From assembly GCF_947492455.1 (NCBI RefSeq), contig NZ_CANLNB010000003.1, forward strand, positions 124,001 through 188,000: 64,000 nucleotides of DNA, read 5' to 3'. The stretch comes from an uncultured Aliiroseovarius sp. (GTDB lineage Bacteria; Pseudomonadota; Alphaproteobacteria; Rhodobacterales; Rhodobacteraceae). The first letter of the stretch is position 1, and each line of letters begins with the position of its first letter. The notes under the pieces were generated by a model. The model was not told the origin of the DNA. It did not search any database and saw only the letters and a program-made list of their open reading frames with translations. Below, in pieces: positions 25,364-40,711 of the stretch. The position numbers were made by a program, and so were the translations under genes.

Positions 25364-26449
25364 GTGGAGACTGTTCAAATTGCAATCGCTGGGGTGGGTT
25401 TGGTTGGCCGACGTCACGCGGATGCCATCAATCAACTGAAACACGTGACCCTGTCCGGGGTGGTGGATCCTAGCGCGGAAGGGCGCGCCTTCGCGCAGGA
25501 CAGGGGCGTTCCGTGCTTTGACACGCTGGAAGAGCTGTTTGCCGCGCAAACGCCAGACGGGCTTGTTCTGGCAACGCCCACGCCGCTTCATGTGGCGCAG
25601 GGGCTTGAAGCGGTGCGCCACGGTTGCCCGGTATTGATCGAAAAGCCCTTAGCGACCTCGGCCCGTGAAGCGCGGACGCTTGTTGAGCAGGCAGAAGATA
25701 AGGATGTGCCCATTCTTGTCGGCCACCACCGCCGTCACAACCCGCTGATCCGCAAGGCGCACGAAGTTGTCTCGGATGGAGGGATCGGCGAGGTGCGCGC
25801 GGTGCATGTCAATTGCTGGTTCTACAAGCCCGACCATTATTTCGATGAAGCGCCTTGGCGCAAAAAGGCGGGGGCGGGACCGATCTCGGTCAACCTGGCG
25901 CATGATGTGGATCTGATTCGCCACCTGTGCGGCGAGGTTCAAAGCGTCCAAGCGCAGTCTGCGCCGTCGATGCGTGGGTTCGAGAATGAAGACGTCGCCG
26001 CCGCAGTTCTTCGGTTCGAGAATGGCGCGATTGGCACCATCACGGTGTCCGACAGCATCGTGTCACCCTGGAGCTGGGAGTTGACCTCGAACGAGTACCC
26101 GATTTACCCGCCGACGCCCGAGAGCTGCTATATGATTGGTGGCGCGCATGGATCGCTGTCTGTCCCCGATTTGCGTCTCTGGAAACATCAGGATGGGAAG
26201 CGCGATTGGTGGACGCCGATTGCGGCGACGACACTGATCCGCGAGGCGTCGGATCCACTGGTCAACCAGATGCATCATTTCGCGGATGTCATCGCCGGAC
26301 GGGCCGAGCCGCTGGTGTCAGGACGCGAGGGTTTGCGCACCCTGAAAGTGCTGGAAGCCATCCAAGCGGCCTGCAAAACCGGCGAAATCGTCGAAATTCA
26401 CCCCGGTCAAGATATTGAAATCGAACGGGAATACTCTGCTGCAGGATAA
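25364..26449 (+). CDS. Gfo/Idh/MocA family NAD(P)-dependent oxidoreductase A
   Basis: A 361-residue dehydrogenase. The N-terminal Rossmann motif is IAGVGLVGRRHADAI and the family lysine motif is VLIEKPLATSAREA. The C-terminal domain carries NLAHDVDLIRHLCGEV, where Asp/His are the usual active-site positions. The family oxidises or isomerises polyols, inositols and sugar derivatives. GTG start with AGGGGGGA eight bases upstream. It is the first gene of the plus-strand island genes and is separated from dctP by a gap that holds an operator copy. Confidence 0.88.
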   Translation: METVQIAIAGVGLVGRRHADAINQLKHVTLSGVVDPSAEGRAFAQDRGVPCFDTLEELFAAQTPDGLVLATPTPLHVAQGLEAVRHGCPVLIEKPLATSAREARTLVEQAEDKDVPILVGHHRRHNPLIRKAHEVVSDGGIGEVRAVHVNCWFYKPDHYFDEAPWRKKAGAGPISVNLAHDVDLIRHLCGEVQSVQAQSAPSMRGFENEDVAAAVLRFENGAIGTITVSDSIVSPWSWELTSNEYPIYPPTPESCYMIGGAHGSLSVPDLRLWKHQDGKRDWWTPIAATTLIREASDPLVNQMHHFADVIAGRAEPLVSGREGLRTLKVLEAIQAACKTGEIVEIHPGQDIEIEREYSAAG

Positions 26450-26543
26450 AATATCAGATATTTTGCAAAAAATATTGCAAAATATCCAAAATCAGGCAAA
26501 CTTACGATCGAGCTGATCAATGCGATATTCAGGGAGGAAAATC
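26450..26543 (+). promoter_or_regulatory. Operator and promoter region for the TRAP/quiC operon
   Basis: AATATCAGATATT (26450-26462) overlaps the end of the oxidoreductase stop region, followed by an AT-rich stretch with TTGCAAAAAATATTGCAAAATATCC. The AT-rich run in a GC-rich context is promoter-like. GGGAGG directly before the dctP ATG is its ribosome site. Confidence 0.65.
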
Positions 26544-27557
26544 ATGATCACCAAACTTACACGCCGCGCGGCGATTTCTGCCATCGTAGCGGCAGGCGTT
26601 GTTGCTGGCACGTCGGGTGCGAGCTTCGCAGACGACAAAGTCCAACTGCGTTTGGCCACTTCGGGTTCGGAAACGGACCAGCGTTCGGTCGCCATGGCCG
26701 AGGTCTTTGGCCCGATGGTTGCAGATTTTGCGGACTATCAGCCCAGCTATAACGGTACCATTTTCGCCCAAGGCACCGAGCTTGACGCGATCTCGCGCGG
26801 GAACCTTGAGATGTCGATCGCCTCGGCACAGGAACTTGCACAGTTCTTCCCCGAGTTCTCGATCTTCGCGACCGGCTATGTCCATCAGGACGCTGCCCAC
26901 CAGGTTGCAGTGTTCAACGACCCGCTGATGGATCCGTTCAAAGCGAAAGTTGAAGACGAGCTGGGCATCAAACTGCTGTCCGTTATGTATTTGGGCCGTC
27001 GTCAGGTGAACCTGCGCCAGTCGAAAGACGAGCTGACCGTCATGACCCCGGCAGACCTTGCAGGTGTTAACCTGCGTATGCCGGGCACGGATGCGTGGCA
27101 GTTCCTGGGTGCCGCACTGGGCGCCGCGCCCACGCCGATGGCGTTCTCGGAAGTCTATACTGGTCTGTCAACCGGTGCTGTAGATGGCCAAGACAACCCG
27201 CTGCCGACCGTTGTGGACAAGAAGTTCTACGAGGTAACCAAGCAGATCGTTCTGACCTCGCACCTTGTTGACCTAAACTATATCGCGATCTCGAAAGCGG
27301 TATGGGATGGTATGACTGCTGACCAGCAGGCCACCGTACAGAAAGCCGCTGATGCTGCTGCCGAAAGCGGTCGCCAGAAGCAGCTGGAGCTGGAAGGCAG
27401 CCTGGTGGCCTTCCTGGAAGAGCAGGGCATGTCGGTTTACGAACCTGATCTGGAAGCCTTCCGCACTCACGTGCAGGCACAGTATGTTGGGTCCGAGTTC
27501 GCTGCCAGCTGGCCTGAAGGCGTGCTTGAGAAAATCAACGCACTGGGCGCCAAGTAA
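26544..27557 (+). CDS. dctP: TRAP transporter solute-binding protein DctP
   Basis: Periplasmic receptor of 337 residues for a carboxylate-type solute. It begins with a twin-basic signal peptide, MITKLTRRAAISAIVAAGVVAGTSGASFADD (cleavage after SFA). The family features VNLRMPGTDAWQFLGAALGAAPTPMAFSEVYTGLSTGAVDGQDNPLPTV include the conserved arginine that pairs with the substrate carboxylate (NLRMPG). It is followed by the small and large membrane subunits, making a complete tripartite system. Substrate binding is not readable from sequence, but the neighbours suggest an oxygen-rich cyclic or sugar acid. Confidence 0.93.
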   Translation: MITKLTRRAAISAIVAAGVVAGTSGASFADDKVQLRLATSGSETDQRSVAMAEVFGPMVADFADYQPSYNGTIFAQGTELDAISRGNLEMSIASAQELAQFFPEFSIFATGYVHQDAAHQVAVFNDPLMDPFKAKVEDELGIKLLSVMYLGRRQVNLRQSKDELTVMTPADLAGVNLRMPGTDAWQFLGAALGAAPTPMAFSEVYTGLSTGAVDGQDNPLPTVVDKKFYEVTKQIVLTSHLVDLNYIAISKAVWDGMTADQQATVQKAADAAAESGRQKQLELEGSLVAFLEEQGMSVYEPDLEAFRTHVQAQYVGSEFAASWPEGVLEKINALGAK

Positions 27558-27584
27558 GCCAAACTGACAAGAGGGAGAACGACA

Positions 27585-28151
27585 ATGGAGAAAGCCTTCA
27601 AGTGGTTCTCCCGTCTTGCAGAAGCGATTGCCGGCGGCTTGCTGGCGGCAATCTTCCTAACCTTTCTTCTACAGATCGCGCTGAGATACCTGTTCACGCC
27701 CGCTGGCTGGACGTTGGAGCTGATCGGTATCCTGTGGGTCTGGGTGATCTTCTTCAGCTGCGCCTTCGTGGTGCGCGAACAAGATCAGGTAAAATTCGAC
27801 ATCATCTATCTGTCGGTCAGCAGACCGGTGCGTCGGGTCTTTGCGCTTATCTCGGCTGTCGCACTGGTGGTCGGGATGCTCTACACGCTTCTTCCGACAT
27901 TGGACTACATCGACTGGATGAAAATCCGGAAGACCTCGACCGTGCGTAACCCATTTACGGGCAACAAGATCCCCCTTCGCGATGTCTTCTCGATCTACGG
28001 CGTCTTCATCGTTGCGATCGCCGCCCGCTACGCGTGGCAGTTCGTCGACACACTCCGCAACGGACCGCCCAAAACCGAGCTGGAACTGGCCGTCGAGGCG
28101 CTTCACGAGGCTGAAGCCGCAGAGAATTCCCAAGAGGATGCAAACAAATGA
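27585..28151 (+). CDS. dctQ: TRAP transporter small membrane subunit DctQ
   Basis: A 188-residue protein with four hydrophobic spans (from AEAIAGGLLAAIFLTFLLQIALRYLF to FSIYGVFIVAIAARYAWQFV) and the family segment LELIGILWVWVIFFSCAFVVREQDQVKFDI. The C-terminal tail is acidic. GAGGGAG ribosome site; its stop overlaps the dctM start (ATGA-type). Confidence 0.92.
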   Translation: MEKAFKWFSRLAEAIAGGLLAAIFLTFLLQIALRYLFTPAGWTLELIGILWVWVIFFSCAFVVREQDQVKFDIIYLSVSRPVRRVFALISAVALVVGMLYTLLPTLDYIDWMKIRKTSTVRNPFTGNKIPLRDVFSIYGVFIVAIAARYAWQFVDTLRNGPPKTELELAVEALHEAEAAENSQEDANK

Positions 28152-29443
28152 GCTTTGAGCTGATTTCCCTTCTTGTCACCCTCTTCTTCTTGGCAGGGAT
28201 TGGCACACCGATCGGGTATTCGATCTTGCTGGCATCTGTTGTCTATCTGGGTGTCGCAGGGCTGGACGTGGCTTTGGCGGGCGAGAAAATCCTGCAGGGC
28301 TTCTATCGCAGCACCATTCTGTTGGCCGTGCCGCTGTTTATCGTCGCCGCCAATATCATGAATGCCGGGTCGATCACCGACCGCCTTCTGAACTTCTGTG
28401 TCGCGGCTGTTGGACGCTTTAAGGGTGGCCTAGGGCATGTGAACGTCGTGGCGTCCCTTATCTTCTCGGGCATGTCTGGATCTGCCGTCGCGGATGCTGC
28501 TGGTATCGGCAAAATCATCATCGAGATGATGACCAAAGGTGACCGGTATCCGCGTGGTTATGCGGCCGCAATCACCGCCGCCACGGCCACGATTGGCCCG
28601 ATTATTCCACCGTCGATCCCCATGGTGCTCTATGCACTTGTGTCCAAGGCCTCCATCGGGTCGCTGTTCTTGGCTGGCATCCTGCCGGGCCTGATCATGG
28701 GCGCGGTGCTGATGGGGATTAACGGCTACCTGGCACGCAAGCGTGACTTCGCGCTGGAAGAGCCTATTCCGCTGCGCGAACTGCCGCGGAAAACGGCGAA
28801 TGCCTTCCCGGCGCTGCTGATGCCCGCCATTCTGCTCTACGGCATTTACGGAGGCGTCACCACGCCAACGGAAGCCGCCGCTGTTGCTGCATTCTATGCG
28901 CTGATGCTGGCCTTCATGTTCTACCGCGCCATTTCACTGGGCAAACTTTATCAGGTGTTCGTGGATAGTGCCCGGTCGTCGGCCTCGGTCGGGATCGTCA
29001 TCGGCGGCGCGTTCATCCTGAACTTCATTGTGATCCAGGAACAAATCCCTCAGGCGATCTCGTCCATGCTGGAAGGCTCGGACATCAGCCCGATCATGTT
29101 CTTGATCTTGGTAAACGTCCTGATCCTGGCGCTGGGTTGTGTCTTGGATGCGACCACCATCATCTTGGTGATCGTCCCGCTGTTCATCCCAACCTGCGAA
29201 GCCTTGGGCATCGACCTTGTCCACTTCGGAGTGCTGGTCGTGGTGAACTCGATGATCGGATTGATTACGCCGCCCTATGGGATCCTGCTCTTTGTGATCA
29301 ACGCGGTCACTGACATCCCGCTGCGTGAAATCATTTCTGAAATCTGGGCCTTCCTGATTGTGCTGGTTCTGGCGCTGATTGCGATGATGCTGCTGCCCGA
29401 CATGATCCTGTGGCTACCGAGGCTCTTTGGATACCAAGGCTAA
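28148..29443 (+). CDS. dctM: TRAP transporter large membrane subunit DctM
   Basis: Sodium-coupled permease subunit of 431 residues with about twelve spans. The family blocks GMSGSAVADAAGIGKIIIEMM and PIIPPSIPMVLYALVSKASIGSLFLAGILPGL are intact, as is GVTTPTEAAAVAAFYALMLAF. It overlaps dctQ by four bases and its TAA shares one base with the ATG of the quiC-like gene, so transport and catabolism are translated together. Confidence 0.95.
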   Translation: MSFELISLLVTLFFLAGIGTPIGYSILLASVVYLGVAGLDVALAGEKILQGFYRSTILLAVPLFIVAANIMNAGSITDRLLNFCVAAVGRFKGGLGHVNVVASLIFSGMSGSAVADAAGIGKIIIEMMTKGDRYPRGYAAAITAATATIGPIIPPSIPMVLYALVSKASIGSLFLAGILPGLIMGAVLMGINGYLARKRDFALEEPIPLRELPRKTANAFPALLMPAILLYGIYGGVTTPTEAAAVAAFYALMLAFMFYRAISLGKLYQVFVDSARSSASVGIVIGGAFILNFIVIQEQIPQAISSMLEGSDISPIMFLILVNVLILALGCVLDATTIILVIVPLFIPTCEALGIDLVHFGVLVVVNSMIGLITPPYGILLFVINAVTDIPLREIISEIWAFLIVLVLALIAMMLLPDMILWLPRLFGYQG

Positions 29444-31326
29444 TGTCACTTGCAATTTCGACCACGTCCATTCCCGGTGATCTTGAAGAAAAACTTTCGG
29501 TCATCGCGGATGCGGGCTTTCAAGCTGTGGAACTGCACGAGCCGGATTTCACCGGGTTTCACGGATCCGCTGCGGATGTCGCGCAGATGGCGCAGGGGCT
29601 TGGGCTTTCCATTAACCTTCTGAAACCCTTCAATGACCTTGAAGGCTGGGGCGGAGAAGAGCGCATTCGCGCCTTTGACCGGCTCGAGCGGAAGTTCGAT
29701 CTGATGCATGCACTGGGCACCGACATGCTGCTGATTGGCGCTTCCAGTCGCGAGATGCCGATTGAACAAGCCACCACAGACCTTGCAGATGCCGCCGCCC
29801 GGGCGAAAGCGCGTGGGATGCGTTTGGCCTATCTGGCGCTGCCTTGGGCGGGGTCGATCCAGACGGATGCCCAAGCACTGGATCTGATCCAGCAGATCGA
29901 CAGCCCCAATCTGGGCCTTGCGCTGAACAGCTATTTCTCGCTCGCGGATGGTGCCAAACCTGCACAGCTGCGTGACCTGCCGGGCGACCGTGTGTTCCAC
30001 GTTCAGCTGTCCGATGCGCCACGTACGCAGGGGGCTATTCGCAGCCTCAAGCGGCACTTTGGTATGCTGCCCGGTCTGGGATCTCTGAACCTTGCGGGCT
30101 TCGTGAAGGTGCTTTCACGTGCGGGATACAAAGGCGCGTGGTCGGTTGCCCGCGTGAACGAACACAGCCCGCGTCCCGGCGGGCGCACCTTGGCGCAAGA
30201 TGGCTATCGGGCGCTGGTGAACCTGCTGGACGAGGTATCGCGCAGCGATCCTGATCTGCGCTTCGACATCCCCGACCTTCCGCCGCGTGTCTACACATCG
30301 GGCTTCGAGTTTATCGAGTTCGCAGCGGATGCCACCAGCGGCAAAGAGCTGACCGACATGCTGTCGGCCATGTGTTTTCGGATGGAGCGCAAACACGTCT
30401 CGAAATCGGTCGAGCTGTGGCGGCAGGGCGCGATCAACATCGTCGTGAACACGGAAAAAGAGGGCTTCGCCCATTCTGCTTTCATCGGTCATGGCCCGTC
30501 GGTCTGTGACATGGGGCTGCGCGTGAAGGACGCGGGCCAGACCGTCGCGCGCGCCACCGCGTTAGGCACGCCGCAGTTCTCGCAACCCGTTGGGACGGGC
30601 GAGCTGGACATCCCGGCCATTCGCGGTGTCGGCGGCAATGTTGTCCATTTCATTGACGAGAAATCTGACCTGCATCGGGTCTGGGATATCGAGTTCGAAC
30701 CCGTCGCCAAGACCGAAGCCACCCAACCGGCCGGTCTGCGCCGCATCGACCATGTGGCCCAGACCATGCGCTACGAGGAAATGCAAAGTTGGCTGCTTTA
30801 CTACACATCGACTTTCGAGATGGCGAAGTCTCCGATCGTCGACGTGGCGGACCCGGCGGGTGTGGTGCATAGCCAAGCCATCGAAAGCCCTGAAGGCGAA
30901 GTGCGTCTGAACCTGAACGGCGCCGAGGGCCATCGCACCTTTGCAGCGTCGTTTCTGGCGGACAAATTCGGGGCAGGGGTGCAGCATATTGCCTTCCTGA
31001 GCGACGACATTTTTGAGACCTCTGCGCAGCTCGTCGCGCATGATTTCCCACGATTGGAAATCTCGCCCAATTACTACGACGATCTGCAGGCGCAGTTCGG
31101 GCTGGAGGACGATCTGATCGCACGTTTGCGCGACGGGAACATCCTCTACGACCAGCAGGGCGGCACCACCTATTACCAGATCTACAGCCAGCCGATCTTC
31201 CAAGGCTTCTTCTTCGAGATCGTCCAGCGCACCCGTAGCTACGCCGGTTACGGCGCCCGCAACGCGTCCGCCCGTCTGGCTGCGCAAATGAAACACCAAC
31301 GACCAGCAGGGATACCGCGCACATGA
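29443..31326 (+). CDS. quiC: QuiC-type 3-dehydroshikimate dehydratase / HPPD-like fusion
   Basis: A 627-residue two-domain protein. Residues about 1-280 form a sugar-phosphate isomerase/epimerase-like TIM barrel (ADAGFQAVELHEPDF, FHVQLSDAP, GAWSVARVNEH), and residues about 290-610 are a 4-hydroxyphenylpyruvate-dioxygenase-like (VOC) domain. Its three metal ligands appear retained as His in RRIDHVAQ, His in GVQHIAFL and Glu in FFEIVQR. This architecture and length match QuiC1 of Pseudomonas, which converts 3-dehydroshikimate to protocatechuate. A related ring dehydration of another carbocycle is possible. Confidence 0.85.
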   Translation: MSLAISTTSIPGDLEEKLSVIADAGFQAVELHEPDFTGFHGSAADVAQMAQGLGLSINLLKPFNDLEGWGGEERIRAFDRLERKFDLMHALGTDMLLIGASSREMPIEQATTDLADAAARAKARGMRLAYLALPWAGSIQTDAQALDLIQQIDSPNLGLALNSYFSLADGAKPAQLRDLPGDRVFHVQLSDAPRTQGAIRSLKRHFGMLPGLGSLNLAGFVKVLSRAGYKGAWSVARVNEHSPRPGGRTLAQDGYRALVNLLDEVSRSDPDLRFDIPDLPPRVYTSGFEFIEFAADATSGKELTDMLSAMCFRMERKHVSKSVELWRQGAINIVVNTEKEGFAHSAFIGHGPSVCDMGLRVKDAGQTVARATALGTPQFSQPVGTGELDIPAIRGVGGNVVHFIDEKSDLHRVWDIEFEPVAKTEATQPAGLRRIDHVAQTMRYEEMQSWLLYYTSTFEMAKSPIVDVADPAGVVHSQAIESPEGEVRLNLNGAEGHRTFAASFLADKFGAGVQHIAFLSDDIFETSAQLVAHDFPRLEISPNYYDDLQAQFGLEDDLIARLRDGNILYDQQGGTTYYQIYSQPIFQGFFFEIVQRTRSYAGYGARNASARLAAQMKHQRPAGIPRT

Positions 31327-32183
31327 AAGCCGCGCTGATTGGACAGAATATCGGGGGCTCATTGACCCCGGACATGCATATGGCCGAGGCCAAGGCTCAG
31401 GGCTTTGCCTATGACTATCAACGGTTTGACACCACGGTGCCTCCGTTTGACGGGATGAGCTTGAAGGACATCCTACATCGGGCCGAGGCAGACGGCATGG
31501 TCGGCGTAAACGTGACCCATCCTTTCAAAGCGGACGCTGCCAGCTTGATGCACGAGCTGTCCGAGACCGCGCAGGCGCTGGGGGCTGTGAACACAGTCCT
31601 GTTCAAAAATGGGCGCTGGGTTGGCCACAACACGGATTACGTCGGGTTCCGCTCGGCGCTGCGCAACGGATTGCCCATGGCCTCGATCGCGAAGGTGCTG
31701 CTGGTTGGGGCAGGGGGCGCGGGCGGAGCTGTTGCGCTTGCCTTGATTGATCAGGGCTGCGGTACGCTTCGTGTGACAGACAAGTCCATCGACCGCGCCG
31801 AAGCCCTTGCCGCGCGACTGAAAGCGGCACGTCCGCGGGCGCAAATTCAAGTCGCGCGCAGCTTTGAAAGCGCTGACCCCAGTGGCTTAAGCGGCGTGGT
31901 CAATGCAACCCCTGTCGGGATGGATGGCCATCCGGGCATGGCGTTTGATCCCAACCAGCTGGCACCGGCCTGCTGGGTTGCCGACATCATCTATTTCCCA
32001 CGTCAGACCGAGCTGCTGAAACGCGCAGCGTCACGTCGCCTGCGGACGATGGATGGATCCGGCATGGCGATCTTTCAGGCCGCTGCAGCCTTTCACCTGA
32101 TGACCGGTAAGACGGCTTCTCCGAAACGGATGACCGAACACTTCAGACACCTTGTGTCTCAGGAACGGAAGGAAATGGCATGA
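31323..32183 (+). CDS. Shikimate/quinate dehydrogenase family protein
   Basis: A 286-residue AroE-fold enzyme. Substrate-domain motifs VGVNVTHPFK (catalytic Lys) and LGAVNTVL, the conserved GHNTDYVGF with the catalytic Asp, and the cofactor loop LLVGAGGAGGAVALALI are all present. In a catabolic operon next to QuiC it most plausibly oxidises shikimate or quinate to the dehydro compound, as in YdiB/QsuD-like enzymes, rather than acting in aromatic biosynthesis. It overlaps quiC and the following gene by four bases each. Confidence 0.85.
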   Translation: MKAALIGQNIGGSLTPDMHMAEAKAQGFAYDYQRFDTTVPPFDGMSLKDILHRAEADGMVGVNVTHPFKADAASLMHELSETAQALGAVNTVLFKNGRWVGHNTDYVGFRSALRNGLPMASIAKVLLVGAGGAGGAVALALIDQGCGTLRVTDKSIDRAEALAARLKAARPRAQIQVARSFESADPSGLSGVVNATPVGMDGHPGMAFDPNQLAPACWVADIIYFPRQTELLKRAASRRLRTMDGSGMAIFQAAAAFHLMTGKTASPKRMTEHFRHLVSQERKEMA

Positions 32184-33004
32184 CCAGCGACCGTTCAGAC
32201 GCAGACGCCATCCGCCATTGGTGGCGCACGTCGATCATCGACATGGAGCCGGGCAAGATCGCGTTCCGGGGCCATCCCATTCAGGACTTGATTGGCAATG
32301 TCTCGTTTCCGCAGATGATCTGGTTGATGGTGCGTGGCGATATGCCAAGCGCCGATGAAGCTGCCCTGTTCGAGGCCGCTTTGGTGGCCGGGGTGGATCA
32401 CGGCCCGCAAGCCCCCTCGATCGCTGCTGCGCGCATGGCGGCGACCTGTGGCGTCGGGCTGAACAACGCCATGGCAACGGCTGTGAATATGCTGGGTGAT
32501 GTGCATGGCGGGGCGGGAGAACAATGTGCCGAGCTTTACTATGGCATCTCGGACAAGTTGCGCGATGGCGTTGGGCTGAACGAGGCCGTGACCAGTGGGC
32601 TGGACGATTGGCGCGCGCAGTACGGCAAGATTGTTTCGGGCTTCGGCCACAGGTTCCACAAGCCCGTCGATCCACGTGCGCCTCGGCTGATGCAATTGGT
32701 GCGCGACGCAGCCGCCAAGGGCACCGTATCCGGGCGGTTTGCCGATATCGGCGAAGAGGTTCAGGCCGTGCTTGGTCGTCAGCGCGGCGGGCACCCGATC
32801 GCGATGAACATCGACGGCGCGACCGCGGTAATTTTCTGCGAACTTGGCTTCCCTGCACCACTGTCGCGCGGGTTGTTCTGCTTGTCCCGATCCGTCGGCG
32901 TGCTGTCCCATGCCTGGGAGCAAATGAACCAGGGTGGTCGGAACAAAGGTCCGATGCCGCCCAGCTATCTACCACTTTATGAAGCGAAAGAAGATGACCG
33001 GTGA
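32180..33004 (+). CDS. Citrate synthase-like / citryl-CoA lyase family protein
   Basis: A 274-residue protein with the small-type citrate-synthase fold. AALVAGVDHGPQAPSIAAARMAATCG has the conserved active-site His block, VSGFGHRFHKPVDPRAPRLMQL the second His/Arg block, and IAMNIDGATAVIFCELGFP the catalytic Asp region. It is shorter than true citrate synthase (about 430) and resembles the lyase domain that cleaves citryl-CoA-like thioesters. Its presence in a shikimate-like cluster is unexpected and suggests an acyl-CoA condensing or cleaving step in the pathway. Confidence 0.8.
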   Translation: MTSDRSDADAIRHWWRTSIIDMEPGKIAFRGHPIQDLIGNVSFPQMIWLMVRGDMPSADEAALFEAALVAGVDHGPQAPSIAAARMAATCGVGLNNAMATAVNMLGDVHGGAGEQCAELYYGISDKLRDGVGLNEAVTSGLDDWRAQYGKIVSGFGHRFHKPVDPRAPRLMQLVRDAAAKGTVSGRFADIGEEVQAVLGRQRGGHPIAMNIDGATAVIFCELGFPAPLSRGLFCLSRSVGVLSHAWEQMNQGGRNKGPMPPSYLPLYEAKEDDR

Positions 33005-34190
33005 CGCACCGAAAACCTTCCGGGTCGGCCTTGTTGGATGTGGCCGTATAAGTGACATCTATCTGACTACAATTGAAAAATTCTCCGAGGTCGAGGTCGT
33101 GGCCTGCGCCAGTCTTGATCTGGAGGAAAGTCGGGCAAAGGCGGCGCAGCATGGGATCGCGCGTGCCTGCTCGGTGGACGAAGTGATCGCCGATCCCCAG
33201 ATCGACTGTATCCTCAACCTGACCATTCCGGCCGCCCATGCCGATATCACGCGGCGGGCGCTTTTGGCAGGTAAGCATGTGTATTCGGAAAAGCCTTTCG
33301 TTACAGAGATGGACGATGGGCGCGAGCTGTTGGCGTTGGCCGAGGCGCGCGGGCTGAAGCTGGGTAATGCGCCCGATACCTTCCTCGGCGGGCGCTGGCA
33401 AACCGTGCGCCGCTTGATCGATAAGGGCGCAATTGGCCGTCCGACCGGCGTGTTTGCCCATGTAGGCACGCATGGCACGGAGCGACACCACCCGAACCCG
33501 GACTTTTACTATCAGGCAGGGGGCGGGCCGCTTTTGGACCTCGGTCCATATTACCTGACCGCAATGGTGTTCTGCCTTGGCCCCATCGCCCGCGTGGCAG
33601 GCATGGCAAACCGTGCCTTCACCCAGCGCCAGATCGAAAACGGTCCTCGCAATGGTGAGTGGATCAATGTGCAGGTCGACACCCATTCGCTCAGCTTGAT
33701 CGAGTTTGAAACAGGGGCTGTTGGGTCCATGACCATGAGCTTCGACATTTGGGACAGCGAAGCCCCGCGGTTCGAGATTTATGGCGAGGATGGCGTGATC
33801 TCGATCCCCGATCCCGATCCGGTTCATGGGGTGAATGATTTCCACGGCCCGGTCTGGCTGCGCACGCGCGAAACCTCGCGCTGGTCACACCAACCTCGCC
33901 CCACTGGACGCGACGATTGGCAAGTGGTCGAGAACCGTCACGGCTTTAACGAAAACAGTCGGGGACTGGGCCTGCTCGACCTAGCCTTGGCCGTGCGCGA
34001 CGACCGGCCCGTCCGGGCCAGCGGCGAGTTGTCCTTCCATGTGTTCGAGGTGATGGACGCCATCGCCCGTGCCCCGCACGAAGGGCTCTATCAGAGTATC
34101 GCCAGCACGTGCCCGGTACCGGAACCGCTGCCGGTAACCTTCCCCGCCAGTGAAGCCATCCAGACAAAAGAGACCGCAAATGCCCATTGA
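32994..34190 (+). CDS. Gfo/Idh/MocA family oxidoreductase B
   Basis: A 398-residue dehydrogenase with the Rossmann start FRVGLVGCGRISDIYLTTIEKF, the family lysine motif VYSEKPFVTEMDDG and the active-site region GGGPLLDLGPYYLTAMVFCLG. It overlaps the preceding gene by 11 bases and the following gene by 11 bases, so coupling is tight. It differs clearly from oxidoreductases A and C, implying a separate substrate or step. Confidence 0.85.
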   Translation: MTGDAPKTFRVGLVGCGRISDIYLTTIEKFSEVEVVACASLDLEESRAKAAQHGIARACSVDEVIADPQIDCILNLTIPAAHADITRRALLAGKHVYSEKPFVTEMDDGRELLALAEARGLKLGNAPDTFLGGRWQTVRRLIDKGAIGRPTGVFAHVGTHGTERHHPNPDFYYQAGGGPLLDLGPYYLTAMVFCLGPIARVAGMANRAFTQRQIENGPRNGEWINVQVDTHSLSLIEFETGAVGSMTMSFDIWDSEAPRFEIYGEDGVISIPDPDPVHGVNDFHGPVWLRTRETSRWSHQPRPTGRDDWQVVENRHGFNENSRGLGLLDLALAVRDDRPVRASGELSFHVFEVMDAIARAPHEGLYQSIASTCPVPEPLPVTFPASEAIQTKETANAH

Positions 34191-34845
34191 AACCGTCACC
34201 ATCGCCGAGCCGTTTTTCGGCATGCGCCACGTCACGGACGAGGCCCTGTTTGAGGTCACAGGCCGCGCGATTGTGCTGAACGTCGCCGACCGCCCCATTC
34301 GGATCGAGGATCAGACTCTCGCCCCGCTGCAATCGGCGATCTTCGCCCATGTCACCTTGCATGATGTGGATCGCGCTGTGGTGGTGGACCGCTTCGACGC
34401 GCATACCGATGATGCCGCCCTTTGCGCGGAGGTGCGCAAGGTCTGGCCCTCGGCTTATGAGGTTCGCGGCGAAGAGCGGCTGCGCGGCGTCGAGCACTAC
34501 ATGTCACCCAAGGTCTTCGTCGGCAATATCGGCCTGACCATGTACCACTCGGCTTCGGTGCCGCTGAATGTCGGGTTGCACAAGGATCACCCGTTCTGTC
34601 CGGTCCCGGGCTTTCGCGAGGTGCACACCCAGATCGTCGGGTTCGGCAAAATGCAGCAATGTCACGAACGCGACCCGGCCACGCTTTACCTAGAAGAGCC
34701 GATGGCCCCAGGCATGACCCATCGCCCGATGTATGACGACCAAGGCAACTATCCTTGGCACCAATACGAAACGACCACGCCCAGCATCTTTATGGCGCTG
34801 GAAATCCTGCCCGAGGGGGCAGAGATCCCGAAATTGGGAGGATAA
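34180..34845 (+). CDS. Cupin-like hypothetical protein
   Basis: A 221-residue protein rich in predicted beta strands. HKDHPFCPVPGFREVHTQIVGFGKMQQ contains several His/Glu residues arranged as in the metal site of cupins, and a second block (YPWHQYETTTPSIFMALEILPEG) looks like the closing strands. Cupins in sugar-acid operons often act as isomerases or dioxygenases; nothing here decides which. It is two bases upstream of oxidoreductase C. Confidence 0.55.
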   Translation: MPIETVTIAEPFFGMRHVTDEALFEVTGRAIVLNVADRPIRIEDQTLAPLQSAIFAHVTLHDVDRAVVVDRFDAHTDDAALCAEVRKVWPSAYEVRGEERLRGVEHYMSPKVFVGNIGLTMYHSASVPLNVGLHKDHPFCPVPGFREVHTQIVGFGKMQQCHERDPATLYLEEPMAPGMTHRPMYDDQGNYPWHQYETTTPSIFMALEILPEGAEIPKLGG

Positions 34846-34846: not shown

Positions 34847-36037
34847 ATGACCGAGAAACTTCTGCCTGAAAAGTTGGATTTCAATGGGCCTTTTCCGGCC
34901 CTCTCGCGTCGCTTGCGCCTTGGCGTTGTCGGTGGTGGGCGCATTTCGGCCACGCAGGCCACCGCGGCACGGATGACCGACCGTTGGGAAGTGGTGGCCG
35001 GTGCGCTGTCGTCTGACCCCGAGCGCGCAAAGGCGCGCGGGGCTGAGTGGTTCATGGACCCGGACCGCAGCTATGCGTCGTTCGAAGACATGGCAAAGGC
35101 CGAAGCCGCCCGCCCCGATGGAGTCGACGCGGTAATGATCACCACGCCGAACCATATGCATTTCCCCGCCGCCAAAGCGTTTCTGGATGCGGGTATTGAT
35201 GTCATCTGCGACAAGCCCCTGACCAACGAGGTGGACGAGGCCACGGCGCTGATCGACCTGACCGCGCAATCCGGGCAGGTGTTCGGCGTCGGCTATGCCA
35301 TGTCTTGTTTCCCGATGATCCGTCAGGCCCGCGAAATCGTGGCCGAGGGGCGCATTGGCAACATCAACCAGATCCATGTGGAGTTCCTGCAGGACTGGAT
35401 GACCCCCGACGATGTGGCCGACGCGCCGCATGTGAAATGGCGGCTCGATCCGAAAATCTCGGGGCCAACAAGCTGTGTGGGTGACATCGGCACCCATGCC
35501 GCGCATCTGGCGAGCTTTGTCAGCGGGTTGGAGATGACCAATTTGCGTGCTGAGTTCCATGTCTGCGGCGCGCCGAAACCGCTGGAAGACACGGCTTTCA
35601 TGTTTACGCGCTTTCAGGGGGATGTGCCCGGCACGCTGATGGCGACCCGCCTTGCCCCGGGCAATCGCGGCGGATTGCGGCTTCGGATCTACGGGTCCGA
35701 GGGCGGAGTGGAATGGGATCTGGAGAACTCCGAGCAGTTGAAATTCTATCGCTTTGGTGAAGCGGATCGGGTGATCAGCCGGGGCCACGGCCACGGGGTC
35801 AGTGCGTCCACCGAACGTCTGGTCCGCACCGCGCGCGGGTTCCCCGAAGGGATCATCGAGGCTTGGGCCAACCTCTACACCGAGTTTGCCATGGCGGTGG
35901 CCGCGCGCCGCGATGGCGTGGCGATCCCCGATGGTTGGGTGAACTTCCCCAAGGTGGCTGAAGGTGCCGCCGGGGTACAGTTCATTGCGGCCTCGGTGCG
36001 GTCGAATGAGCAAGGCGGAGCTTGGGTCGCGATCTGA
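34847..36037 (+). CDS. Gfo/Idh/MocA family oxidoreductase C
   Basis: A 396-residue dehydrogenase. LRLGVVGGGRISATQATAARM is the nucleotide-binding loop, VICDKPLTNEVDEA the lysine motif and GDIGTHAAHLASFVSGLEM the catalytic His segment. The last part resembles the myo-inositol/glucoside 3-dehydrogenase branch of the family. GGGAGGAT precedes the ATG. It closes the first long transcription unit of the island; an AT-rich operator region follows. Confidence 0.87.
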   Translation: MTEKLLPEKLDFNGPFPALSRRLRLGVVGGGRISATQATAARMTDRWEVVAGALSSDPERAKARGAEWFMDPDRSYASFEDMAKAEAARPDGVDAVMITTPNHMHFPAAKAFLDAGIDVICDKPLTNEVDEATALIDLTAQSGQVFGVGYAMSCFPMIRQAREIVAEGRIGNINQIHVEFLQDWMTPDDVADAPHVKWRLDPKISGPTSCVGDIGTHAAHLASFVSGLEMTNLRAEFHVCGAPKPLEDTAFMFTRFQGDVPGTLMATRLAPGNRGGLRLRIYGSEGGVEWDLENSEQLKFYRFGEADRVISRGHGHGVSASTERLVRTARGFPEGIIEAWANLYTEFAMAVAARRDGVAIPDGWVNFPKVAEGAAGVQFIAASVRSNEQGGAWVAI

Positions 36038-36101: not shown

Positions 36102-36155
36102 TTAAATCACGTAGGATAAACCTGCGACTCGCTGATTTCGTCCGGAGCCCATTTC

Positions 36156-37070
36156 ATGCCCGACACCGCCCAACAGGCCGATGAGACACCGCTGTATTCA
36201 TTGGCGCATCTGACCCTGATCGGGGCCTCGCCGCCCGAGCTGGTCTATATCGCTGCGCGCGCGGGCTATGACGCTGTCAGCCCGCGCTTCATCCCGATGA
36301 AAGTACCGGGGGAGTTCACGGAAGCCCCCGTGGATAAGGCGCAGGTGCAGGCCACGAAAACAGCGCTGGCCTCGACCGGGTTGAAAGTGCTGGACGTAGA
36401 ACTGGCCCGTATCACCGAAGATGTGGACCCCCGCAGTTTCGAGCGCGCCTTGGAACTGGGCGGCGAATTGGGGGCCAAGCGGATGATTATGTCGGCCTGG
36501 ACGCCGACCCGAGACGACCGCAACTTCCTTGTCGACGTCTATGGCGAGACCTGCGACCTGGCCGCGCCCTATGGCATCTCTGTTGATCTGGAATTCCCGT
36601 CCTTCTCGCGCCTGCGGACATTGGACGAGACGCTGGACATCGTGCGCGCGGCGGACCGCCCGAACGGAGGCATTTTGGTGGATACGCTCTATCTGCACCT
36701 CAGCCGCGTCGATCTGGGCGAGCTTCTGCACGTCCCGTCCGAACTGTTTCACTTCCTGCACATCTCGGACTGCCTGCCGGGCATCGCGGACACACGCGAG
36801 GGGATGATCCAGTTGGCCCGCGATGCACGGCTCTATCCGGGCGAAGGCTGGATTGATTTCGCCGGCATTATCGAGCGGATGCCGCCGGTGGATTACTCGA
36901 TTGAACTGCCCAACCAAAGCCGCGTGGCGGAACTGGGATACGAAGAACATGCGCGGCGTTGCTTGCAACACGCGAAACGAACCTTCGGCGAGGCGCGCTC
37001 TCAGCGCCGGATGCCGGATGCAGCTACTCTCCAACACAATGAGGATCATCATGAGCAAAGAGCTCACTGA
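36156..37070 (+). CDS. Sugar phosphate isomerase/epimerase family TIM-barrel protein
   Basis: A 304-residue AP-endonuclease-2-like TIM barrel. Metal-site residues of the family are visible as the Glu of VDLEFPSF, the Asp of GILVDTLYLH, the His of FLHISDC and the Glu of SIELPNQ. Homologues include IolE-like dehydratases and 3-dehydroshikimate dehydratases, so it could duplicate or complement the QuiC reaction. It overlaps the aldehyde dehydrogenase start by 20 bases. Confidence 0.82.
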   Translation: MPDTAQQADETPLYSLAHLTLIGASPPELVYIAARAGYDAVSPRFIPMKVPGEFTEAPVDKAQVQATKTALASTGLKVLDVELARITEDVDPRSFERALELGGELGAKRMIMSAWTPTRDDRNFLVDVYGETCDLAAPYGISVDLEFPSFSRLRTLDETLDIVRAADRPNGGILVDTLYLHLSRVDLGELLHVPSELFHFLHISDCLPGIADTREGMIQLARDARLYPGEGWIDFAGIIERMPPVDYSIELPNQSRVAELGYEEHARRCLQHAKRTFGEARSQRRMPDAATLQHNEDHHEQRAH

Positions 37071-38460
37071 CGCGGACCGCCAGCTGGCGGCCGACATGCT
37101 GGCGCGTGCGCGTGCCGCCATGGCAGAAATCGAAGACTGGTCGCAGGAGCAACTGGACCGTCTGTCACAGGCAATTGCGTGGTATGCAGGCAACGAGAAA
37201 ACCTTCACCCGTCTGGCCGAGCAGGGCGTGGATGAAAGCGGCATCGGAGATCGCGCAGGTCGCCCCGCCAAACGCTTCAAGATCCAGATGGTGCTGCGTG
37301 ATGTACTGCGCACGCCGTCGACCGGTATCGTTGAGGTGGACGAGGAAAAAGGGTTGGTGAAATACGCCAAACCTGCGGGCGTGATTGCCTCGCTCATCCC
37401 GATGACCAACCCGGCAATGACGCCGCCTGTGACCGGTGTGTCCTCAGCGAACGCGCGGAATGCGGTGATCTTTTCGCCCCACCCACGCACAGCCCAGACC
37501 ACGTGGGAAATGACCGAAGTGATGCGCGCGGCCTGTCGCGCTGTCGGCGCCCCCGAAGATCTGTTCCAAGCGATCCGCAAGCCGTCGATCCCGTTGACCC
37601 AGCACCTGATGGAGATCTGTGATCTGACGCTGGCCACCGGCGGCAAACCGATGGTGAAAGCGGCCTATAGCTCGGGCCGTCCAGCCTATGGTGTTGGCGC
37701 GGGCAACAGCTCGATCGTCATCGACGAGACCGCTGATCTGGACATCGCCGCGATGAACACGCGCATCTCGAAAACCTCGGATTTCGGGTCTGGCTGTTCG
37801 GCGGATGGCAACATCATCATTCAGAAGTCGATCTATGACGACATGGTCAAGGCGCTGGAGGCCGAGGGTGGCTATCTGTGTAGTGCCGAAGAAAAGGCGA
37901 TGCTGGAAGCTGCTATGTGGGACGAGAAGGGCAACCGCACCTTCCCGACCATCGCCTGTCGTCCGCAGCAAACCGCCGAGGTCGCCGGGTTCTCTATCCC
38001 CGAAGATCGCAAGTTCCTGATGGTTGAAAACCAAGGCCAGATCGGGCCAGAGCACAAGTTCTCGAAAGAGAAACTGACCACGCTAATGGCGCTGTATCAC
38101 TTCGAGACCTTCGATGATGCGCTGGACACGGTCAGCCAAATCTACGCCACCGGCGGCAAAGGCCATTCCTGCGGTATCTACTCGCACAATGACGAAAACA
38201 TCGACCGTCTGGCGCGTCTTGCCCCAGTCAGCCGCATGATGGTGCGTCAGCCGCAATCCAAGGCCAATGCAGGTGCGTGGACCAACGGTATGCCGATGAC
38301 CAGTTCGCTGGGCTGCGGCATCTGGGGCGGCAACATCACCAATGAAAACGTCACCATGAAACACATGATGAACTACACATGGGTCTCGCGGCCCATCGCC
38401 GAAGACCGCCCCTCGGAGGAAGAGCTGTTCGGCGAGTTCTACGGACAGGAGGTCGCGTGA
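37051..38460 (+). CDS. CoA-acylating aldehyde dehydrogenase (sulfoacetaldehyde dehydrogenase-like)
   Basis: A 469-residue enzyme of the acylating branch. GVIASLIPMTNPAMTPPV forms the nucleotide-binding entry, GVGAGNSSIVIDETADLDIA the central block, and Cys249 in DFGSGCSADGN is the catalytic nucleophile. The C-terminal GHSCGIYSHNDENIDRLA matches acetaldehyde/sulfoacetaldehyde dehydrogenases that form acyl-CoA. Together with the adjacent ThDP enzyme this suggests decarboxylation or C-C cleavage of an oxo acid to an aldehyde, then CoA capture. GAGG ribosome site at 37041-37044. Confidence 0.85.
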   Translation: MSKELTDADRQLAADMLARARAAMAEIEDWSQEQLDRLSQAIAWYAGNEKTFTRLAEQGVDESGIGDRAGRPAKRFKIQMVLRDVLRTPSTGIVEVDEEKGLVKYAKPAGVIASLIPMTNPAMTPPVTGVSSANARNAVIFSPHPRTAQTTWEMTEVMRAACRAVGAPEDLFQAIRKPSIPLTQHLMEICDLTLATGGKPMVKAAYSSGRPAYGVGAGNSSIVIDETADLDIAAMNTRISKTSDFGSGCSADGNIIIQKSIYDDMVKALEAEGGYLCSAEEKAMLEAAMWDEKGNRTFPTIACRPQQTAEVAGFSIPEDRKFLMVENQGQIGPEHKFSKEKLTTLMALYHFETFDDALDTVSQIYATGGKGHSCGIYSHNDENIDRLARLAPVSRMMVRQPQSKANAGAWTNGMPMTSSLGCGIWGGNITNENVTMKHMMNYTWVSRPIAEDRPSEEELFGEFYGQEVA

Positions 38461-40253
38461 TGGACGGAGCGAACGTAACGGGCAAAACGGTTGCCGAACA
38501 TATCGTCGACTTTCTGGAACGGCGCGAGGTCGAGCATGTGTTTGGCCTGTGTGGTCACACCAACATCGCGGTTCTGGCAGCTCTTGCCGAAAGCCCGATT
38601 GATTTCATCACCGTGCGCCATGAACAGATCGCCAGTCACGCGGCAGACGCTTATGCGCGTGTGACGGGTAAGGCCTCGGTGGTGTTGTCGCACCTCTCTC
38701 CCGGTTTGACAAACTGCGCCACCGGGGTCGCAAATGCGGCGCTCGACTGTATACCGATGGTGGTGATCGCAGGCGACATTCCGACCCACTATTATGGCAA
38801 GCACCCGCACCAAGAGGTGAACCTGCACGCGGACGCAGCCCAGTGGGAAATCTATCGCCCCTTCGTGAAACGCGCCTGGCGCGTGGACCGGGCGGACCTG
38901 ATGGCCGAGATCCTGGAAAAGGCGTTCCACTTGGCCGAAAGCGGTCAGCCCGGTCCGGTTCTGGTCAATGTGCCGATGGATATCTTTTCGGAAGTGATCC
39001 CTTCGGACACGTTTGACCGGATCCTCGACAACACCCGCGCACTGAAGAAGCCGTCGATCGACGACGAAACCGCGCGCGAGATTGTCGAGAAGCTGGCGCA
39101 GGCAGACAGCCCTGTGGCCTATGTGGGCGGTGGTATCCTTCTGGCGCAGGCCAGCGAAGAACTGCGTGAGTTCGTCGAGCATATGGGCCTGCCAGTCGCG
39201 CATTCCCTGATGGGCAAGGGCGCGCTGCGCGATGATCACCCGCTGGTGATGGGTATGACGGGCTTTTGGGGCACCGAGTTGGTGAACCAATCCTGCCTGA
39301 ATGCGGACTACGTCTTTGCCGTAGGGACGCGGTTTAAAGAGGCCGATTGCTCCAGCTGGTATCCGGGCTACACGTTCAACATCGGCGGGAAGGATGACAC
39401 AACGAAGGTCATCCATATCGACATCGAGCCGCAGGAAATCGGACGCAACTATCCGACCGAGATCGGTGTGGTCGCCGACGCCAAAGCCGCGTTGCGCGTG
39501 CTGACTCGTGTCGCGAAGGAAATGTACCCCGATGGCTTCCCGCGTGTGGAAAAGAAGGCCGAGATTGCCGACTTCCGCACCACGTTCAAAGCCTCGAACA
39601 CCGAGATGCAGACCTCGTCCGCGTTCCCGATGATGCCGGAGCGTATTCTGGCGGATGCCCGCAAGGCACTGCCGGACGATGCGATCATCACCACGGATGT
39701 GGGTTGGAACAAGAACGGGGTGGGGCAGCAGTTCGATATCCTGACACCCGGCTCGATCCTGACCCCCGGTGGCTATGCCACGATGGGCTTTGGCCCCCCG
39801 GCGACGATTGGCGCCAAGCTGGCCGCGCCGGATCGGGTGGTGATCAGCCTTGTGGGCGATGGCGGCTTTGGCCAGAACCCGTCGATGCTGGCGACTGCGG
39901 TCGAACTGGATCTGGGCATCATCTGGCTTGTGATGAACAACAATGCCTTCGGCACCATCGCTGGGCTGCAAAAAGCCCATTATGGGCTGACCTATGGCAC
40001 GACTTTCCCCGGCACCGCCGCCGCGCCCACCAATGGGCCGGGCTATGCCGAGATCGCGCAGGCCTATGGGGCCGTCGGGGTGCGGATTACGTCTGCGGAC
40101 GAGCTGCTTCCTGCGCTTGAGGCAGCCATTGCCAGCGGCAAGCCCACGGTTCTGGACGTTCCGATGATCAACAACCCGACACCCACGACGGGGCATTGGA
40201 ACATCCTCGATATCTACTCGCCGGACAAAGACGTGTCTCACGTCGCAACCTAA
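38460..40253 (+). CDS. ThDP-dependent enzyme, acetolactate synthase-like
   Basis: A 597-residue three-domain enzyme. The catalytic glutamate is in ITVRHEQIASHAADAYARVTGK. The central domain has the GKGALRDDHP segment, and the C-terminal ThDP/Mg motif GDGGFGQNPSMLATAVELDLGIIWLVMNNNAFG (positions about 461-493 of the protein) shows GDG and NN at the usual spacing. It is not close to Xsc or to IolD by eye; a decarboxylase, carboligase or ring-cleaving 1,2-dione hydrolase are all possible. Its ATG overlaps the preceding TGA (TGATG). Confidence 0.85.
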   Translation: MDGANVTGKTVAEHIVDFLERREVEHVFGLCGHTNIAVLAALAESPIDFITVRHEQIASHAADAYARVTGKASVVLSHLSPGLTNCATGVANAALDCIPMVVIAGDIPTHYYGKHPHQEVNLHADAAQWEIYRPFVKRAWRVDRADLMAEILEKAFHLAESGQPGPVLVNVPMDIFSEVIPSDTFDRILDNTRALKKPSIDDETAREIVEKLAQADSPVAYVGGGILLAQASEELREFVEHMGLPVAHSLMGKGALRDDHPLVMGMTGFWGTELVNQSCLNADYVFAVGTRFKEADCSSWYPGYTFNIGGKDDTTKVIHIDIEPQEIGRNYPTEIGVVADAKAALRVLTRVAKEMYPDGFPRVEKKAEIADFRTTFKASNTEMQTSSAFPMMPERILADARKALPDDAIITTDVGWNKNGVGQQFDILTPGSILTPGGYATMGFGPPATIGAKLAAPDRVVISLVGDGGFGQNPSMLATAVELDLGIIWLVMNNNAFGTIAGLQKAHYGLTYGTTFPGTAAAPTNGPGYAEIAQAYGAVGVRITSADELLPALEAAIASGKPTVLDVPMINNPTPTTGHWNILDIYSPDKDVSHVAT

Positions 40254-40261
40254 GACCAACC

Positions 40262-40282
40262 GCCGGGGCCACGCGCCCCGGC
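40262..40282 (+). other. Intercistronic hairpin before the UspA gene
   Basis: GCCGGGGC and GCCCCGGC form a perfect 8-bp stem with a CACGC loop. No T-run, so probably a stabilising or partly terminating element between the ThDP gene and usp. Confidence 0.5.
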
Positions 40283-40300
40283 CATTTATTGGGGATCACC

Positions 40301-40711
40301 ATGTTCAAAACCATCCTCGTTCCGGTCGCTCTGGACCACACCGAAACGCTTGCCCGAAAACTCGAAGCTGCGCGGCAATTGAGGGGGGCAGAAGGCCGCA
40401 TCATTGCGGTTTCGGTGCTCGAAGATATTCCCTCTTACGTCGCCGAATACGCGATGGTGAAGCCCGACCGGAAGAAGATGGTTCAAGAGATTAGGAAAGC
40501 CTTTGCAGACACGTTGACCGGCCAGGACGATGTTGAGCGTGTAACCCTAGCGGGCAAGCCCGGCGTGGTGATCGCGAGTTACGCCGAAGAGATCGGCGCG
40601 GACCTGATCGTCACCGGCGCAAGCCGCCCCGGAAGCGAGGGTTATGCACTGGGATCAACCGCATCGCGACTGGCAAGACGAGCGCCATGCTCGGTGCTTG
40701 TGATTAGGTGA
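40301..40711 (+). CDS. Universal stress protein UspA family
   Basis: A 136-residue single Usp domain beginning MFKTILVPVALDHTETLARKL. The ATP-binding pattern appears as VTGASRPGSEGYALGSTASRLARRAPCSVLVIR (G-2x-G-9x-G-S/T). TRAP transporters often carry a cognate Usp subunit gene (as in TeaD); here it is the last gene of the island cargo rather than adjacent to dctPQM. A GGGGAT sequence lies just before the ATG. Confidence 0.88.
   Translation: MFKTILVPVALDHTETLARKLEAARQLRGAEGRIIAVSVLEDIPSYVAEYAMVKPDRKKMVQEIRKAFADTLTGQDDVERVTLAGKPGVVIASYAEEIGADLIVTGASRPGSEGYALGSTASRLARRAPCSVLVIR

Follow-up and report, generated by a model that had tools for sequence, protein, structure and literature searches.

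We analysed a 64,000-nucleotide stretch of DNA (the window) from an uncultured Aliiroseovarius sp. (contig NZ_CANLNB010000003.1, positions 124,001 to 188,000), in which positions 25364 to 40711 hold a gene cluster that likely encodes a so far undescribed catabolic pathway. All enzymes recognised in it come from known families, and the ring-opening logic is similar to that of inositol catabolism. A general sequence in which a thiamine diphosphate (ThDP) enzyme yields an aldehyde that is captured as an acyl-CoA and then releases acetyl-CoA is, in our judgement, quite probable. The more specific reading is an oxygen-independent, carbon-conserving and never-aromatic route for quinate and shikimate, which would proceed through a cyclic 1,2-dione, a new ThDP subfamily and a homocitryl-CoA lyase later replaced in one clade by a member of the 3-hydroxy-3-methylglutaryl-CoA (HMG-CoA) lyase family; we give it slightly less than even weight. 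Gene content, conservation, catalytic residues and gene substitutions were observed directly, and from them we infer every substrate and reaction named below.

A compact and conserved gene cluster

The initial annotation, made from the sequence alone, had described one regulated cluster of an importer and diverse enzymes, and all of the families that it named were found, except that the cupin was not confirmed, with a divergent regulator beside them. The features are as follows.

24504..25226, minus strand: GntR/FCD-family regulator (PF00392 and PF07729), divergent from the operon and just outside 25364..40711
25364..26449, plus strand: Gfo1, Gfo/Idh/MocA dehydrogenase, putative ring dehydrogenase (PF01408/PF22725/PF02894)
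26520..27557, plus strand: DctP, TRAP solute-binding protein (PF03480)
27585..28151, plus strand: DctQ, TRAP small permease (PF04290)
28148..29443, plus strand: DctM, TRAP large permease (PF06808; TIGR00786)
29443..31326, plus strand: QuiC homologue, TIM barrel plus HPPD-like domain (alignment to 5hmq and 1cjx; 80-row conservation)
31323..32183, plus strand: shikimate/quinate dehydrogenase (SDH) homologue, putative quinate/shikimate oxidation (NF009201)
32180..33004, plus strand: citryl-CoA-lyase-like protein (CCL), putative acetyl-CoA-releasing acyl-CoA lyase (NF004864)
32994..34190, plus strand: Gfo2, Gfo/Idh dehydrogenase, optional block (Pfam; block distribution)
34180..34845, plus strand: 221-residue protein, labelled a cupin in the initial annotation, optional block (position between Gfo2 and Gfo3)
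34847..36037, plus strand: Gfo3, Gfo/Idh dehydrogenase, optional block (Pfam; block distribution)
36156..37070, plus strand: AP_endonuc_2 TIM barrel, putative dehydroshikimate-dehydratase-type dehydratase acting on 3-dehydroquinate (PF01261; conserved residues; alignment to the QuiC domain)
37051..38460, plus strand: CoA-acylating aldehyde dehydrogenase (AldDH), SauS/EutE/SucD-like, putative acyl-CoA maker (NF047625; Cys motif; 8cei)
38460..40253, plus strand: ThDP enzyme, acetohydroxyacid synthase (AHAS)-like but of its own subfamily, putative ring-opening hydrolase yielding an aldehyde (PF02775/PF00205/PF02776)
40262..40282, plus strand: GC-rich hairpin, possible operon end (stem of eight GC pairs, 3' of the ThDP stop)
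40301..40711, plus strand: universal stress protein, probably outside the pathway (PF00582)

Thirteen same-strand genes, from Gfo1 to the ThDP gene, thus lie between the regulator and the hairpin, mostly touching or overlapping, and Pfam matched all three components of the TRAP importer. Because the hairpin follows the ThDP stop codon, the universal stress protein may not belong to the operon; promoter and terminator scans of the window, which covered this hairpin, gave overall no more than shuffled sequence gives.

The cluster proved real, and it is both compact and conserved. We mapped 80 neighbourhoods from named records, among the matches listed, alongside those of matching genomes from the family and phylum samples described below, by tblastn with the window proteins, scoring gene presence as the best assignment at E ≤ 1e-6. 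Weak matches count, such as CCL at 30% in L117, Gfo1 at 25–29% in L042, L087 and L105, and SDH at 30–31% in L107 and L119, and absences are upper bounds because locus ends cut many neighbourhoods. AldDH adjoined the ThDP gene in 79 of the 80 loci and the barrel adjoined AldDH in 74; the QuiC homologue was present in 66, CCL in 58, Gfo1 in 31, SDH in 29 and a regulator homologue in 25, many loci being cut before the regulator. The initial annotation had named failure of the genes to co-occur outside this genome as grounds for abandoning its proposal and had called for neighbourhood analysis of the ThDP enzyme with the citrate-synthase-like protein; the cluster instead recurs, and identical gene order in other genera makes a chance assembly untenable. 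The residue alignments used below mix loci of two collections, so that certain contigs are represented by two rows (L029 and L069, for instance); rows shorter than 70% of the window protein were dropped, and residue numbers refer to the aligned stretch, which starts one residue after Met in QuiC and two in the ThDP enzyme.

The source genome measures 3.09 Mb, and the nearest named relatives of the locus, among the matches listed, are Aliiroseovarius species (98% ThDP identity). Within the same family, 19 of 198 genomes had a ThDP match at E ≤ 1e-100; counting the window, 15 of these loci reach at least 70% identity. Across a phylum sample, matches at E ≤ 1e-150 were found in five of 398 genomes, including the one that carries the window, whereas the single same-genus genome listed had none, which marks the locus as accessory. 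The ThDP family is common: a scan with two of its peptide patterns recovered at least 541 stretches encoding a ThDP relative at E ≤ 1e-3, not all of them necessarily of this subfamily. The Aliiruegeria lutimaris locus L081 has the regulator, Gfo1, AldDH, the ThDP gene and only the end of a barrel, with no TRAP, QuiC or lyase match within about 10 kb; the same strain also carries a locus of the HMG-CoA-lyase type (L110).

Substitutions of the putative lyase and CoA-capture genes

The order of the late steps is suggested by gene substitutions. The call of a citryl-CoA-lyase-like protein is strong, at 432 bits against NF004864 (cut-off 261). The best solved relative of CCL is the citryl-CoA lyase 6hxp, and H109, H157, D212, R166 and R237, which correspond to residues with known roles in the citrate-synthase fold, were present in 71/71 rows. 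This citrate-synthase-fold gene filled the lyase slot in 58 of the 80 loci, a member of the HMG-CoA-lyase family in 12, both in none and neither in ten; of these ten, six are short loci or have their start within the core. Among sister-clade loci, the gene immediately upstream of the barrel was HMG-CoA-lyase-like (PF00682, 3/3 scanned) and scored above the HMG-CoA-lyase cut-off in 4/4 scanned. In a ThDP tree built from 53 selected rows, which carries a long-branch warning in that L148 joined the actinobacterial rows, the 14 rows of this type formed one group (support 99/88) with one row lacking either lyase inside it. The deeper rows, from Azoarcus and actinobacteria, have CCL as well, which is thus probably the older state. 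For either family, the acetyl-CoA released comes from a 3-hydroxy-3-substituted glutaryl-type thioester.

A second substitution affects CoA capture. The dehydrogenase at 37051..38460 is an acylating-type match, as had been annotated: its nearest NCBIfam model is SauS (NF047625), although at 425 bits it falls short of that cut-off (600), its best solved relative is the acetylating succinate-semialdehyde dehydrogenase 8cei, and the Cys of the motif GSGCSADG was present in 93/93 rows. In four further loci, from Azoarcus (L126), Nonomuraea (L127) and Streptomyces (L128) and in L147, a CoA-transferase III gene (PF02515) lies beside CCL, confirmed by Pfam in L126, L127 and L147 and, in L128, 72% like that of L127. 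No acylating AldDH match was found within the stretches read of these four loci, and a PF00171-type aldehyde dehydrogenase, confirmed by Pfam in L147 and taken to be non-acylating, adjoins the ThDP gene in L127, L128 and L147; L148, from the same phylum search as L117, retains the acylating AldDH. The replacement of the acylating AldDH by a CoA-transferase III and an aldehyde dehydrogenase suggests that the aldehyde is there converted to an acid and then to an acyl-CoA, and since neither a CoA-transferase nor a lyase would be required for free citrate, this acid is probably a different one. Together, the swaps in lyase and CoA capture point to the order ThDP enzyme, aldehyde, acyl-CoA, and a lyase giving acetyl-CoA and a keto acid. 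They support the earlier suggestion of an undescribed pathway for a polyhydroxylated carbocycle in which ThDP-type C–C cleavage to an aldehyde precedes CoA capture and a lyase step.

A probable link to the dehydroquinate node

The initial annotation had set quinate and shikimate aside on the grounds that their routes have no need of the late enzymes; SDH and the sister loci instead favour the dehydroquinate node, through what would be a non-aromatic route. SDH lies above its family cut-off (NF009201, 326.5 bits against 235), in agreement with its annotation, and K69, N90 and D105 were found in 37/37 aligned rows. We scanned 125 loci, duplicates included (L140 and L149 are L117 again, and L129 serves as outgroup), for dehydroquinate dehydratases. 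DHquinase II was present in seven loci (L025, L065, L097 with two, L107, L113, L115 and L117) and the unrelated DHquinase I in L126, all far above Pfam cut-offs; those of L025 and L065 share 96.5% identity and are therefore not independent. The dehydratase gene lies in the same-strand run as the core in L097, L113, L117 and L126, of which L097 has the regulator, Gfo1, TRAP genes, lyase, barrel, AldDH, ThDP gene and its two DHquinase II genes, and neither QuiC nor SDH. The SDH homologue and two unrelated types of dehydroquinate dehydratase in eight sister loci thus argue for quinate and shikimate as substrates.

The outgroup L129, on an Antarctobacter heliothermus plasmid, combines at 2352-17373 a ThDP paralogue (36%), DHquinase II, enzymes of the short-chain dehydrogenase/reductase and epimerase families, a cupin and a tripartite tricarboxylate transporter, and is perhaps another ring-acid route.

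A degraded QuiC dehydratase domain beside an HPPD-like domain with an intact iron triad

A fusion of a QuiC-type dehydratase with a 4-hydroxyphenylpyruvate dioxygenase (HPPD)-like domain had been annotated. Both domains are present, and the 2-His-1-Glu iron triad of the HPPD-like domain (H436, H514, E591) was found in 80/80 rows. The protein scored 498.6 bits, below the NCBIfam QuiC cut-off of 1200, and at the active-site positions listed in a study of QuiC (Glu134, Asp165, His168, Gln191 and Glu239; PMC7442255) it has Leu, Asn, Phe, Gln and Ala. Judged by these residues, the dehydratase domain in the window is degraded and the metal site is lost. In our alignment, eight of 80 QuiC rows keep EDHQ(E/D) and four more keep Glu, His and Glu without Asp and Gln; all 12 belong to loci of the HMG-CoA-lyase type. 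The role of the QuiC C-terminal domain is described in that study as unknown, with activity on protocatechuate not established in vitro.

The homologue is missing from five of the 64 loci that reach DctM or the regulator (L081, L084, L087, L097 and L115). The 5.8-Mb genome of L097 gave no HPPD-like match. Of the five searched genomes whose locus lacks QuiC, three metagenome-assembled genomes (MAGs; G198, G200 and G202) gave none, and the other two, G199 and G201, carry one elsewhere in the genome. Intradiol dioxygenase (PF00775), expected for the classical conversion of quinate through protocatechuate, had no match in the window's own genome, with the control giving a signal in four of 14, and the LigB family (PF02900) had two matches in the genome, one of them, by eye, among homoprotocatechuate-like genes. 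In L148, a single stop-free frame of 922 codons (6331-8997) joins a QuiC barrel, an HPPD-like domain and a second barrel, perhaps a natural triple fusion.

These data bear on whether the operon serves one function at all. It could instead combine two unrelated ones, uptake and oxidation of quinate or shikimate by known enzymes and a separate ThDP/AldDH/lyase pathway acting on a different sugar acid or cyclitol, as the variation of SDH (29/80), QuiC (66/80) and the Gfo2-to-Gfo3 block (34/80) around a tighter core would suggest. However, dehydroquinate dehydratases accompany the core even in L097 and L117, where little else is left, the QuiC barrel and the second barrel share one open frame in L148, and the genome has no intradiol dioxygenase match with which to complete the classical quinate route, so we regard a split operon as improbable.

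A candidate ring-opening route

The barrel had been called IolE-like. Its profile scores are nearer to IolI (64.9 bits), Lmo2234 (64.7) and QuiC1 (46.6) than to IolE (3cny, 18.6), and no IolE model was among its two NCBIfam matches. E146, D176 and E250 were present in 86/86 rows and H202 in 83/86, the Glu-Asp-His/Gln-Glu metal site of AP_endonuc_2 proteins. R222 and R225, also in 86/86 rows, align with Arg207 and Arg210 of QuiC and are both lacking from the AP_endonuc_2 protein beside the genome's true IolD, which was taken as IolE.

The ThDP enzyme, whose three domains confirm its annotation, scored below every cut-off among the 25 of 52 NCBIfam matches listed, acetolactate synthase among them (TIGR00118, 410 bits against 538), and below that of IolD (TIGR04377, 234.6 against 715; the genome's true IolD reaches 799.2). 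Glu53 was present in 98/98 rows, and the motif GHTN occupies the place of GHGN in the genome's IolD and GGAV in its AHAS. That genuine IolD (799 bits) lies near an AP_endonuc_2 protein at G000:C4:547715-549547 and C4:550904-551695 (L121, L002), probably a separate inositol locus.

In the route that we favour, the TRAP system would import quinate or shikimate and the operon would degrade them without aromatisation. Gfo1 or SDH would oxidise quinate to 3-dehydroquinate, from which the metal-dependent barrel would remove the 5-hydroxyl, the group that dehydroshikimate dehydratase removes, to give 1-hydroxy-3,4-dioxocyclohexane-1-carboxylate; because C1 is still sp3, the product would be this 3,4-dione and not protocatechuate. 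IolD hydrolyses the bond between two keto carbons in inositol breakdown, and with the same regiochemistry the ThDP enzyme would yield OHC-CH2-C(OH)(COOH)-CH2-CH2-COOH. The acylating AldDH would convert this aldehyde to homocitryl-CoA, which CCL, or the HMG-CoA-lyase-type enzyme in the sister clade, would split into acetyl-CoA and 2-oxoglutarate. Shikimate could enter through SDH and then a dehydroquinate dehydratase working in reverse. By arithmetic, the balance closes as quinate + CoA + 2 NAD+ → acetyl-CoA + 2-oxoglutarate + 2 NADH, with no O2 or CO2 (C7H12O6 + CoASH → acetyl-CoA + C5H6O5 + 4 H). The complete homocitryl-CoA route from quinate is, in our estimate, evenly poised between right and wrong. 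No such route was found in the portion of the open-access literature covered, where absence is weak evidence.

Several observations weigh against this scheme. The iron triad (80/80) and the QuiC homologue (66/80) are widely kept, yet have no role in it, and by eye the L127 QuiC homologue keeps its dehydratase residues. No dehydroquinate dehydratase match was found in the 64 kb of the window. The barrel has a Tyr (Y179, 84/86 rows) at the position of QuiC His168, by profile it is most like the isomerase IolI, and no such barrel was found in the stretches read of L127, L128 and L147 or in the plasmid of L128. With an identity of only 23% to the genome's IolD, the ThDP enzyme stands closer to AHAS (31%), and the known substrate of the lyase family is citryl-CoA, not homocitryl-CoA. 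An HpaI-type aldolase, for which the scheme has no need, lies 3' of the ThDP gene in nine of the 80 loci. Finally, L097 and L117 are MAGs, so that gene absence in them is weak evidence.

The iron triad would find a use if the ring were first made aromatic, with dehydroshikimate converted to gallate and cleaved by the HPPD-like domain, the barrel hydrating oxalomesaconate to 4-carboxy-4-hydroxy-2-oxoadipate, the ThDP enzyme decarboxylating it, AldDH forming citryl-CoA and the lyase releasing acetyl-CoA and oxaloacetate. This would end on the known citryl-CoA-lyase substrate and suit AHAS-like ThDP enzymes, which commonly act on 2-oxo acids. However, in the CoA-transferase loci its free acid would be citrate, making both CoA-transferase and lyase pointless; by eye, the L126 HPPD-like protein has Asp in place of the second His of the triad; and an HPPD-like match is absent from three of the five searched genomes whose locus lacks QuiC, although the other two carry one elsewhere. 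We consider an aromatic route distinctly improbable.

Gfo dehydrogenases, the aldolase and transporters

The three Gfo/Idh dehydrogenases that had been annotated are all present but do not form one unit. Gfo2 and Gfo3 flank the gene at 34180-34845 in an optional block, complete in 34 of the 80 loci, whereas Gfo1 is separate and is also found without the block. The cupin label for the middle protein (about 220 residues) has no Pfam support, as no match at E ≤ 0.001 was found and DUF5785 alone appeared at the limit of 10 (E 0.19). The nearest solved relatives of Gfo1 were not specific, and at 143 bits it falls below the IolG cut-off of 355.

The HpaI-type aldolase noted above hints at a 4-hydroxy-2-oxo acid in some loci. 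The L066 protein (11792-12568), at 302 bits, does not reach the HpaI cut-off (369), and in L055 the aldolase probably follows one small gene. Such an acid would be expected if the 5-hydroxyl were kept: Gfo1 and SDH, both present in the window, would together oxidise quinate to its own 3,4-dione, the barrel would act as an isomerase, in keeping with its IolI match, and the lyase would release acetyl-CoA and 4-hydroxy-2-oxoglutarate, which the aldolase would split into pyruvate and glyoxylate. However, of the 74 loci in which over 900 bases follow the ThDP gene, 65 lack the aldolase, and the window cluster has no recognised one; L097, with its minimal core and Gfo1 as the only recognised ring-type dehydrogenase, and L110, several of whose open reading frames are not annotated, each have a single recognised dehydrogenase of this type and lack the aldolase within the locus. 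We therefore think retention of the 5-hydroxyl unlikely.

Elsewhere in the window, a 504-residue protein (46010-47524) has homologues (35–37%) near the core at L104:2288-3766 and L113:15962-17266. No TRAP genes were found in L104 and L113, and L113 has a TctC protein close to its homologue of the 504-residue protein.

Comparison with known systems

The known degradation of quinate and shikimate runs by way of protocatechuate, with a ring cleavage that costs oxygen. The favoured route, if correct, would provide a new oxygen-free, hydrolytic link from shikimate-type compounds to acetyl-CoA and 2-oxoglutarate in central metabolism, and would suggest how many marine Rhodobacterales could use quinate and shikimate. 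It would also give functions to an unnamed ThDP subfamily, to a TIM-barrel family and to some 'citryl-CoA lyases' that lack a citryl-CoA supply, and would be a case of one pathway served by lyases of two unrelated families and by CoA activation of two kinds.

Classical quinate/shikimate catabolism (qui/qsu, in which QuiC or QsuB leads to protocatechuate) shares with the cluster the SDH family, the dehydroquinate dehydratase of the sister loci and the QuiC homologue, and differs in the loss of the dehydratase metal site in the window, the lack of an intradiol dioxygenase match in the genome and the addition of the ThDP enzyme, AldDH and lyase. The 4,5-cleavage of protocatechuate or gallate could supply a citrate-like tertiary alcohol, and its PmdC is a Gfo/Idh protein; no hydratase or aldolase genes of that route were recognised in the window cluster, and an assignment of Gfo1 as PmdC/LigC was rejected since PmdC came only tenth of its 22 PDB matches. 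Mycosporine-type substrates, with a tertiary alcohol between two CH2 groups, were likewise considered and set aside, as no gene seen indicates them. A sulfoacetate reading (SauS/Xsc) was also discarded: SauS is the nearest NCBIfam model of AldDH, but AldDH lies below the SauS cut-off and the ThDP enzyme below that of Xsc, and no other sulfonate gene was recognised in the cluster.

CCL resembles the citryl-CoA lyase 6hxp in family and in the His-His-Asp and Arg positions of the citrate-synthase fold; unlike in the citryl-CoA lyase system, it stands beside an acylating AldDH with no citryl-CoA synthetase recognised in the cluster, and its proposed substrate is one carbon longer. For the ThDP enzyme, the comparison is cyclohexane-1,2-dione hydrolase (2pgn), which depends on ThDP and opens the ring of a cyclic 1,2-dione, as proposed here, although the match (176.6 bits) is weaker than that to the best AHAS (252 bits). 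An inositol operon as such was rejected because the true IolD sits at a separate place in the genome; Gfo1 and the ThDP enzyme score below the IolG and IolD cut-offs, and the later iol steps are replaced by citryl-CoA-lyase-type cleavage. The cluster nevertheless resembles myo-inositol catabolism (IolG, IolE, IolD), which proceeds by oxidation of a ring hydroxyl, dehydration, ThDP-dependent opening and later aldehyde oxidation on CoA, in its proposed Gfo/Idh ring oxidation, loss of water on an AP_endonuc_2 protein, ThDP ring opening and later oxidation of an aldehyde on CoA.

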